DNA from: Gammaproteobacteria bacterium
GTDB lineage: Bacteria > Pseudomonadota > Gammaproteobacteria > Pseudomonadales > Cellvibrionaceae
Direction of reading: 5' to 3'
DNA length: 51,062 nt
NCBI GenBank assembly: GCA_025362015.1
Contig: JANYIO010000269.1
Coordinates: forward strand, 1 to 51,062
A model generated the notes under the pieces. That model was not told where the DNA came from and ran no database searches. It was given only the letters and a program-made list of their open reading frames with translations. Below are positions 32,239-34,571 of this stretch, in pieces. Position 1 is the first letter of the stretch; each line of letters begins with the position of its first letter. The translations under genes and the position numbers were made by a program.

Positions 32239-33180
32239 TTAATTTTTTCGCTCAATAATGTACGCAGAAAGTTCACGTAAATAATGGGCATTACTGCCAA
32301 AACTTTCGAGTGCAGCAAGCGCTTGTTGATGCAGTTCTTGCGCTTTGGCACGCGCAGCATCCAAGCCTAAAAGCGCAACATAGGTCGGTTTGTTACGCGC
32401 TATATCTGCACCTTGTTGTTTGCCCAGGGTTTGCGTGTCTGCTGTTACATCGAGTATATCGTCTTGCACTTGAAATGCGAGGCCAATGGCCGCGGCATAA
32501 GTATCAAGTGCTGCTAATTGTGCAGCGTTTGCACCGAGTGCTGTCGCGCCCATGCCGACACTTGCACGAATTAGTGCGCCGGTTTTGTGGCGATGCATGG
32601 TTTCCAGTTGCGTGAGATTTATATTTTGGCCAACCGCAGCTAAATCCAATGCCTGTCCCAGTACCATCCCATGCGCACCTGAGGCGTGGGCAAGTTGGCG
32701 AATCAATGCGACTTGTATCAGCGGGTCACCATCGTGGATGTTGCTAAGCAGTTCAAAGGCAAATGTTTGCAAAGCATCGCCGGCGAGAATGGCCGTCGCT
32801 TCATCAAAAGCGATATGACAAGTAGGTTTTCCGCGACGAAGATCATCATCGTCCATCGCCGGTAAATCATCATGTACCAAGCTGTAAGAGTGTAAGCTTT
32901 CCAGTGCGGAGGCAACGCGGTCAAGCAGTGACTTATGAGTAGTAAATGCGGTGGAGCTAATGGCTAAGGCACTCGCATACACTAGCGTCGGGCGAACCCG
33001 TTTGCCGCCGTTGAACAGGCTGTAACGCATAGCCGCCCGCAATTGTGTTGGATCTTGCAGTGCACCAGACTTTGGATAGCTTTGCGGCAAAAATGTGTCA
33101 AGCGCAGCATCTACATCTTTGCGGCACTGTTGGTTGAAGACAGAAAATGTATAGGTGGCGTCGGTGGGCATGGGCTTCAT
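32239..33180 (-). CDS. ispA: (2E,6E)-farnesyl diphosphate synthase
   Basis: Condenses isopentenyl diphosphate units to farnesyl diphosphate, the precursor of quinones and undecaprenyl carriers. Both Asp-rich motifs are present: [14 protein letters not shown] and [16 protein letters not shown]. The start overlaps the xseB stop (ATGA), the usual arrangement. The dxs gene that normally follows ispA is missing here; rsmE comes instead. Confidence 0.95.
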
Positions 33181-33419
33181 TGATCGTTGTTTGCGTCAAA
33201 TTCGCTTAAGCGAATTTGACCCTGTTGCTCTTGTAATAAAGTGACTTGCTGTTCTGCTTCAGCTAATCGTGTTTGGCATTCGCGTGTTAGCTGGATACCA
33301 GTAGCAAATGCCTGGAGCGATTCTTCCAGTGTTAGATCGCCTTGTTCCATCTTATTTACAAGGGTTTCAAGTGCATTGAGTGATTGCTCAAAATCAGCAG
33401 CTTTCTTTTTGACGGCCAT
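33177..33419 (-). CDS. xseB: exodeoxyribonuclease VII small subunit
   Basis: An 80-aa helical protein ([29 protein letters not shown]), the family signature, that binds XseA to form a single-strand exonuclease. It overlaps ispA by an ATGA junction. Its promoter must lie in the spacer it shares with the small RNA gene on the other strand. Confidence 0.95.
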
Positions 33420-33510: not shown

Positions 33511-33528
33511 TGTGCGATATGTCTTACA
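33511..33528 (+). promoter_or_regulatory. GacA-type upstream activating site
   Basis: TGTGCG-ATATGT-CTTACA matches the known GacA box TGTAAG-N6-CTTACA at 10 of 12 fixed positions, with a perfect right half and the exact spacing. Its centre is about 65 bp before the predicted start of the small RNA, close to the distance at Pseudomonas rsmY/rsmZ. Binding by a GacA orthologue is inferred. Confidence 0.6.
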
Positions 33529-33572
33529 AAAAATACGGAAATCCGCCACTAGCGAATGGCAGATAAAACAAC

Positions 33573-33578
33573 AATAAT
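33573..33578 (+). promoter_or_regulatory. possible -10 box of the small RNA gene
   Basis: AATAAT matches TATAAT at 5 of 6 positions and lies 44 bp after the GacA-like site. It would place the RNA start near 33585. No good -35 box is seen, as expected for an activator-dependent promoter. Confidence 0.4.
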
Positions 33579-33584
33579 GGCCCC

Positions 33585-33721
33585 GCTAAGGATAAGAACA
33601 CTCGGAGAGTGTGGCTTGGAATGGAAAGGACGCTCCACGTATTTTGCTCGCTGTTTTTTTCAAACAGTTGGCACATCCTGTAAAACAGGCCTACAGCACC
33701 CCTCTGCTGTGGGCCTTTTTT
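33585..33721 (+). ncRNA. putative Rsm/Csr-type regulatory small RNA
   Basis: A predicted transcript of about 137 nt. Five GGA motifs start at 33590, 33604, 33618, 33623 and 33628. The second forms the loop of a perfect hairpin (ACACTC-GGA-GAGTGT, 33598-33612), the presentation favoured by CsrA/RsmA. Two more hairpins follow (CTGTTT/AAACAG from 33651; CCTGT/ACAGG from 33677) and then a strong terminator. The family known from Pseudomonas (RsmY, RsmZ) sequesters RsmA under GacS/GacA control. No convincing protein is encoded. The 5' end is inferred; an unrelated small RNA remains possible. Confidence 0.6.
33688..33721 (+). terminator. intrinsic terminator of the small RNA
   Basis: GGCCTACAGCA pairs with TGCTGTGGGCC over 11 bp (one U-G), with loop CCCCTC, followed by six T's. 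It points along the plus strand, toward aroE, and its T-run overlaps the aroE stop codon. It cannot belong to any plus-strand protein gene nearby, which supports a stand-alone RNA. Confidence 0.85.
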
Positions 33722-34571
33722 ATTTGCTGGATTCCGTAAGTTGGCGGCGTATAGCGGTAATCACCGGAATAACTTCCGGGCGGATATGTCGCCATAAATA
33801 AAAGGCTTCGGCTGCTTGACCTATCAGCATACCTAAACCGTCGGCAATATGCGGGGCATTATTTTCTTTTGCCCAGCGCATAAATACAGTAGGTTCCGCG
33901 CCGTACATCATGTCGTAACAGCATGCATTATTCGCTAAAATATTTTCCGGTAGTGGCGGTAAATCTCCACTCAAGCTTGCTGAGGTACCATTAATGACTA
34001 GGTCAAATTGTTGGTCGTTTGATAACTCATTATTTATTAATTGCTGATAGGTGCGCGCCTGTATGTTGCCTAAATCGTGAAATTGTTTTTCTAATTCTTC
34101 GGCTTTAACAAATGTGCGATTTACAATAATTACTCGTTGCGGTTGTTCTGCTAGTAATGGCTGCAAAATTCCGCGCACAGCACCACCTGCACCCAATACT
34201 AAAATTCGTTTATCGCGTAACTCCCAGCCGAGATTGTGCATGTCATGCACCATGCCTATTCCATCGGTGTTATCGCCGAGTATGGTGCCGTCATTTTGTA
34301 GTGACAGTGTATTCACCGCGCCAGCGCGTTGCGCACGCGCGGTAAGTTCCTGTGCAAATTTAAATGCGTTTATTTTAAAGGGAACAGTAATATTTAAACC
34401 TTTCCCTCCTTGTGCAAAAAATTCTTGTGCATTTTTTTCAAATGCATTTTCATTGACTAACTGTTTTGAATACTGCATATCCTGCCCCGTTTGTTCGGCA
34501 AACTGGCGATGAATATGCGGAGATTTACTGTGATTAATCGGATTGCCAAACACGGCATATTGATCTGTCAT
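33720..34571 (-). CDS. aroE: shikimate dehydrogenase (NADP+)
   Basis: Reduces 3-dehydroshikimate in aromatic amino acid synthesis. I place the start at 34571 (MTDQYAVFGNPINHSKSPHIH), since the longer frame adds residues with no family match. Substrate motif NPINHSKSP, NADP loop GAGGAVRGI and the C-terminal GMLIGQAAEAFYLW are present. Length of 283 aa is normal. Downstream of hemF, as in Pseudomonas. Confidence 0.95.
   Translation of the reverse strand: MTDQYAVFGNPINHSKSPHIHRQFAEQTGQDMQYSKQLVNENAFEKNAQEFFAQGGKGLNITVPFKINAFKFAQELTARAQRAGAVNTLSLQNDGTILGDNTDGIGMVHDMHNLGWELRDKRILVLGAGGAVRGILQPLLAEQPQRVIIVNRTFVKAEELEKQFHDLGNIQARTYQQLINNELSNDQQFDLVINGTSASLSGDLPPLPENILANNACCYDMMYGAEPTVFMRWAKENNAPHIADGLGMLIGQAAEAFYLWRHIRPEVIPVITAIRRQLTESSK

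Follow-up and report, generated by a model that had tools for sequence, protein, structure and literature searches.

The intergenic region at positions 33511-33721 of the window, the whole 51,062-nt stretch of Cellvibrionaceae DNA analysed here, most probably encodes a GacA-activated RNA that sequesters CsrA, a reading to which we assign a probability of about 0.9 from comparison of the sequences. In Gac/Csr regulation, GacA activates the small RNA, and its GGA motifs capture CsrA. The present RNA appears to belong to an undescribed lineage that is spread through much of the Cellvibrionaceae, within a class that is itself well known. Such an RNA is to be expected where both GacA and CsrA exist; the surprise was a conserved heptamer that looks like the complement of a CsrA site. 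The features of the locus are as follows.

33177-33419, minus strand: xseB, the divergent neighbour, identified as a reading frame.
33511-33721, plus strand: putative sRNA gene region, with box, -10 element, GGA motifs, hairpin and terminator all present.
33511-33528, plus strand: GacA box TGTGCGATATGTCTTACA, the upstream activating palindrome, 18 bp, found by pattern match.
33545-33552, plus strand: promoter linker GCCACTAG, between the box and the -10 element, conserved in the family loci.
33572-33578, plus strand: -10 element CAATAAT, with AATAAT at 33573-33578.
33585-33721, plus strand: proposed sRNA of ~137 nt, its 5' end placed from the -10 element.
33590, 33604, 33618, 33623 and 33628 (span 33590-33630), plus strand: five GGA motifs, proposed CsrA sites, read from the sequence.
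33598-33612, plus strand: hairpin ACACTC-GGA-GAGTGT, supported by folding; the relative L028 has GCACTC/GAGTGC.
33675-33681, plus strand: ATCCTGT, a heptamer just before the terminator, conserved by genus counts.
33687-33721, plus strand: intrinsic terminator with T-run; stem at 33687-33716 with 12 pairs and a loop of 6, T's to 33721.
33720-34571, minus strand: aroE, the convergent neighbour; among the loci read, it adjoins the sRNA in the window species only.

All of the features listed in an earlier note on this DNA were found in place in the window. The box matches the pattern TGTAAGNNATNNCTTACA at 12 of its 14 fixed positions, which equals the earlier count of 10 of 12 when only the two half sites are considered, and the -10-like box indeed follows at the claimed distance of 44 bp, with AATAAT at 33573-33578. 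The box alone is not significant, as one site with up to three mismatches was found in the window against 2.5 expected, and one with up to two mismatches against 0.37 expected (30 shuffles). The five GGA motifs claimed within 41 nt, with spacings of 14, 14, 5 and 5, were likewise confirmed at their positions. At least five GGAs in a 142-nt stretch occurred in 1.1% of 5000 shuffles, and five within 45 nt in none of 5000 shuffles of the transcript. The sole other cluster of five GGAs within 45 nt in the window lies at 1020-1064, inside a 377-aa reading frame. The box and the GGA count are each weak singly; the case is decided by conservation.

We compared the corresponding loci of relatives. xseB was found in 56 of 57 genomes, the window's own included, and 30 loci were fetched, 20 of them from the genus. 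A GacA-like box with up to three mismatches in 14 stands upstream of xseB in 19 of these 20, the exception being L040 of genome G015. The 19 genus loci, together with one of another genus, align from the box to the terminator; the box and the linker are nearly invariant, and the transcript diverges, with its GGA motifs and terminator kept. Each of these 19, as well as the locus of another genus, also passed a filter that required AATAATG at the same distance from the box as in the window. A pattern composed of box, linker and ATAAT gave exactly one match in 20 of 21 genus genomes, including one at another place in G015, and the sole genus genome missed, G007, is 79% complete. Within the family, this promoter pattern matched 71 of 144 genomes (73 gave no match), against none of 144 for the reversed control. 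In a sample of 390 genomes of the order, it matched 16, against one for the reversed control. Twelve of the 16 belong to the family, and the four non-family matches are followed downstream by GGA-bearing RNAs of different make. Genomes without the promoter pattern show -10 variants such as TAAAATG.

Positions that the pattern leaves free were conserved as well. In the 57 family loci, which were selected by the promoter pattern, the two bases preceding ACT in the linker are C in 56 and 54 cases, and box positions 7 and 12 are A and T, respectively, in 56 cases each. The GGA motifs are several per transcript, conserved and above chance: the short transcripts hold 5.4 on average, against 3.2 after shuffling and 1.6 on the opposite strand, and the count exceeds the shuffled mean in all 56 of them, a set that includes three non-family rows and the atypical L092 and omits five longer or unterminated transcripts. 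The window member is itself atypical for the family, in that its central site is CUUGGA and not GCAAGGA. The comparison of spacers for GGA loops and the upstream box, suggested earlier as a check, thus had a positive outcome throughout the genus and in a large part of the family. BLAST with the spacer alone recovered only the query itself and two of 56 relatives, because the transcript diverges fast; the other relatives were found by way of the xseB neighbourhood and the promoter pattern.

Other GacA-like boxes in the window genome (G000) were also inspected. A looser pattern gave eight such sites, against three for the reversed pattern, and the 170 nt following them hold zero to three GGA motifs, except for the six at L157, which lie inside a reading frame. 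At L157 (contig C64, ~615-950), another strong GacA-like box, followed by the linker TTGCCGA, stands in front of a small frame of 97 aa from the first ATG. This frame has no Pfam match and carries GGA motifs around its start; judged from its sequence, it is possibly a GacA-controlled protein gene. At L163 (contig C323, 2399-2416), a perfectly palindromic GacA-like box lies in a spacer beside a frame that was named DegV-like by eye.

To cover the transcript independently of its promoter, a covariance model, R1, was built from 23 transcripts with the promoter excluded. At E values up to 0.01, R1 matched 105 of the 144 family genomes, with a single match in 98 of them. Every one of the 23 training genomes is among the matches, together with 82 of the 121 others, so that R1 missed 39 of the 144. 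At the genus level, it reached 18 and missed 14 of 32, and one of the 18, represented by G164, was judged false. In the order sample of 390 genomes, the model found 17 of 18 family members (14 of 15 outside training) and none of the 372 non-family genomes. In the window, it matched 33586-33720 with an E value of 1.1e-13, the sequence being one of the 23 training rows. Twenty R1 loci were then fetched, of which 19 came from genomes outside the promoter-pattern set. A GacA-like box was detected upstream in 17 of these 19 loci by script, 16 of them with at most three mismatches in 14; of the remaining two, L179 has a box recognised by eye and L181 has none. Elsewhere in those loci, besides opposite-strand reads of the same boxes, the search gave three sites only, with four mismatches each. 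Since these loci had been picked without the promoter, the transcript and the GacA box evidently go together. The R1 match at L181, in G164, was taken as false.

Several variants of this arrangement were observed. Tandem R1 matches, with starts 246-505 bp apart, occur in the family genomes G092, G100, G101 and G102, and in G171, which belongs to another family, two near-identical short RNAs (L112/L125) each have their own promoter. The same promoter type also precedes long CsrB-like forms, one of 301 nt with 15 GGA motifs (L043/L109, in G030) and one of 587 nt with 35 (L085, in G070). L108, in G161, has the same promoter type with no clear end, and R1 gave a weak match (22.4 bits) at a distance of 1.3 kb beyond it.

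For the RNA strand of 33580-33724, the predicted folding energy is -52.4 kcal/mol, whereas 200 shuffles gave -38.4 +/- 3.8 kcal/mol (z -3.7). The GGA described earlier as lying in the loop of a perfect ACACTC/GAGTGT hairpin was confirmed at 33598-33612. As for the claimed terminator with an 11-bp stem and six T's, both the terminator and its T-run stood, and the stem is counted here as 12 pairs. This stem is changed on both sides in the alignments A1, A2 and A3. At a place like that of the window's GGA hairpin, 11 sequences of the main clade of the genus form a five-pair stem with an AGGAN loop, with all cells paired. Two of the five pairs are changed on both sides, a count reached by 41 of 500 shuffles, and six cells show a two-sided change, a count reached by none of 500, in a test where sequences of close kin can beat shuffles without any structure. 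In a second group, comprising 11 sequences of two genera, covariation was seen in the stem GCCC/GGGC, which presents a GGA loop, and in the terminator. At the sequence level, GGA motifs in hairpin loops and an intrinsic terminator, as expected of a discrete RNA, are thus present.

The most widespread element of the transcript is the heptamer ATCCTGT. It is the commonest transcript heptamer, being present in 16 of 18 genera with one sequence taken per genus, a count that is partly circular because most genera were found by a model trained on rows of which nearly all have the heptamer; the genera without it are g5, which has ATCCGAC, and the false match g53. The next heptamers, in nine of 18 genera, overlap the same element, and the best GGA heptamers reach seven of 18. 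Among the 57 promoter-chosen family loci, which are free of this circularity and represent few genera, ATCCTG occurs in 51; the six without it are the long L043 and L085, L108 with no end, L053 with ATCCGAC, and L062 and L092. It is also absent from the first 700 bases of L043/L109, L085 and L108. In most members, the heptamer lies 46-48 nt from the 3' end. At the corresponding pre-terminator place, the non-family loci L112, L123 and L124 have a GGA instead (such as ACAGGATGT).

AUCCUGU complements ACAGGAU and differs little from the reverse complement of RUACARGGAUGU, the SELEX site of CsrA as given in the part of the source consulted (PMC7652899). In 49 of 52 transcripts, the likeliest folding partner of the heptamer was a GGA-bearing segment within the same molecule, with probabilities of 0.21 to 1, although some self-pairing of this kind would arise wherever a GGA-rich RNA contains a UCC, and the partner varies. 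In the three exceptions, the heptamer is unpaired (L029) or paired elsewhere (L088 and L089). In the window, it is predicted to pair with the first GGA, at 33590-33592, with a probability of 0.99. RNAalifold on 23 sequences picks a GCAAGGA/UCCUGU pairing with a bulged A, between two segments that are nearly invariant and thus show almost no covariation. In L053/L110, AUCCGAC pairs with CGGAU, a single case. These folding predictions suggest, tentatively, that the AUCCUGU arm may mask a GGA site of its own RNA. In a wider form of the proposal, which we regard as a possibility somewhat short of even odds, the RNA would be a sponge with a built-in antidote, in which a near-invariant anti-CsrA-site arm, carried by most of the Cellvibrionaceae members found, rivals CsrA. 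The arm would do so by covering the CsrA sites of its own RNA or, alternatively, by base-pairing to those in mRNAs. Among masking, a decay signal and an mRNA seed, masking is weakly favoured.

Two other roles of the heptamer, both compatible with sequestration, were considered. The heptamer may be a signal for RNA processing or stability, such as a point of entry for RNase E over which CsrA stands guard. Its position beside the terminator, near-constant in most of the RNAs, is comparable to the place where E. coli CsrB is cleaved, shortly before its terminator, and the portion of PMC5027483 consulted describes CsrB decay as beginning in an unstructured, CsrA-guarded segment immediately 5' of the terminator. 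However, the sequence seems to be under tighter constraint than cleavage in an unstructured segment would require, and neither E. coli CsrB (369 nt, 22 GGA) nor CsrC (246 nt, 14 GGA) has the heptamer, or indeed any TCCT at all, so that we consider this role rather unlikely. A dual-function RNA, whose AUCCUGU pairs with mRNAs carrying ACAGGAU at CsrA sites or Shine-Dalgarno regions, is in our estimate more doubtful still. It would account for the wider spread of AUCCUGU (16 of 18 genera) than of any GGA heptamer (at most seven of 18) and for its complementarity to ACAGGAU, near the SELEX-site reverse complement in the same excerpted source (PMC7652899); moreover, many of the RNAs' own sites are AAGGA or AGGGA, so that an exact internal partner for the heptamer is often missing. 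Folding nevertheless predicts internal pairing, and GCAGGA occurs in just one (L056) of three csrA leaders read. The csrA leaders were accordingly dropped as candidate targets, as the three read, from nine csrA hits, gave no consistent match to the heptamer.

The surroundings of the RNA bear on its identity as a separate gene. xseB lies within 0.16-3.0 kb of the RNA, with the RNA pointing away from it, in 26 of the 27 genomes in which both were mapped. MotA- and MotB-like frames stand between xseB and the RNA at L164, L167, L170 and L173, all of other genera, and a PilZ-type frame follows them at L167 and L170; Pfam was run on the MotA and MotB frames of L164 and on the PilZ frame of L167. By tblastn of the fetched flanks of a few kb, aroE was found at one of 66 loci (some of which share a genome), the window's own, and its presence is therefore local to the window species. 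Its nearest relatives include those of Cellvibrio. Of the location between xseB and aroE given in the earlier note, the xseB side thus holds in the relatives, and the aroE side is incidental.

This arrangement weighs against a role for the locus as leader or attenuator to a gene lying downstream, or simply as the terminator of aroE. The terminator does stand directly behind the aroE stop codon, which its T-run overlaps at 33720-33722 on the minus strand; however, aroE is convergent and was not found beside the RNA at the other loci, whereas the promoter, the GGA series and the terminator persist, and the covariation and the GGA excess would be left unexplained, making such a reading very improbable. 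Least probable of all is a short protein gene such as the open 81-aa frame at 33556-33801, which crosses the terminator into aroE and whose relatives show indels, one- and two-base ones included, in the alignments.

The CsrA-sequestering RNA would have its partners at hand, since homologues of GacS, GacA and CsrA are present in the same genome, the first two at scores below the curated cut-offs. A GacA-like regulator with Response_reg and LuxR-type domains (269.6 bits) lies directly beside uvrC, and a GacS/BarA-like kinase scores 722.7 bits; the cut-offs of these E. coli-type models are 280 and 890 bits, respectively, and the lower scores may fit distant orthologues. CsrA gave nine hits over the Pfam cut-off, one of them cut by a contig end. 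Nine CsrA-family hits (on contigs C153, C221, C99, C289, C158, C150, C1, C124 and C87) seem many for a 4.5-Mb genome. For comparison, the consulted portion of the Teredinibacter genome paper names GacS, GacA and CsrA, and no such RNA (PMC2699552).

In the proposed circuit, GacS would phosphorylate GacA, and GacA would bind the box at 33511-33528 and, together with the linker and the -10 element, start an RNA of ~137 nt, as its sequence and conservation suggest. On the same grounds, the RNA would end at the terminator. Its GGA sites, one of them in a hairpin loop, would then bind CsrA dimers, and CsrA would be drawn off its mRNAs, relieving CsrA control. When free of CsrA, the AUCCUGU arm may pair with the RNA's own GGA site, as predicted by folding, and would thereby tune CsrA loading or RNA decay.

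We also compared the RNA with the known members of the class. Its assignment to the Rsm/Csr type in the earlier note held for the design, with conservation and partner genes in its favour, and did not hold for the sequence family. The suggested search with the RsmY, RsmZ, RsmX and CsrB models turned out negative, as neither the window nor 20 relative loci yielded a match to any Rfam family at gathering score, and the seven matches obtained around the site with E values of up to 10 included no Rsm/Csr family. The Rfam matches to trpB, ctRNA_p42d and Thr_leader were rejected, being far under their gathering scores and resting largely on the terminator hairpin. The RNA carries the Csr/Rsm marks at the level of sequence and matches no Rfam family of that class, and would thus represent a separate sequence lineage of a known design.

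RsmY of Pseudomonas (RF00195) likewise has a GacA box, a linker, several GGA motifs and a terminator at like spacing. Three of the four Pseudomonas-like RsmY promoters read have GCGTCT where the Cellvibrionaceae have their linker. However, the RsmY RNAs of these four genomes are without ATCCTG. The RsmY model exceeded its cut-off in four of the 15 genomes in which it was run, each of them a member of one other family and taken as Pseudomonas-like, and gave no match in the family genomes G000, G004, G011 and G022. CsrB and CsrC are GGA-rich RNAs that sequester CsrA, and the Cellvibrionaceae also have long GGA-rich forms (301 nt in G030 and 587 nt in G070), which likewise have no Rfam match. RsmZ, RsmX, RsmV and RsmW of Pseudomonas are of like design, as judged from the descriptions in the parts of PMC7911923 and PMC4950607 consulted, and differ in that those with models gave no Rfam match here. 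Among the matches listed in a literature search, none dealt with a Csr/Rsm RNA from Cellvibrio or from other members of this family, and an earlier computer prediction for a relative is possible.

The Cellvibrionaceae include polysaccharide degraders and a shipworm symbiont. In this family, the RNA described here is likely the missing arm of the Gac/Csr circuit, and the R1 covariance model allows it to be found in other genomes. Its AUCCUGU element further poses a testable question, namely whether some Csr RNAs use base pairing to regulate the CsrA sites they carry, or to regulate mRNAs. If so, the RNA would work through base pairing in addition to protein capture; in the case of self-masking, it would be a self-timed sponge, opening with rising CsrA.
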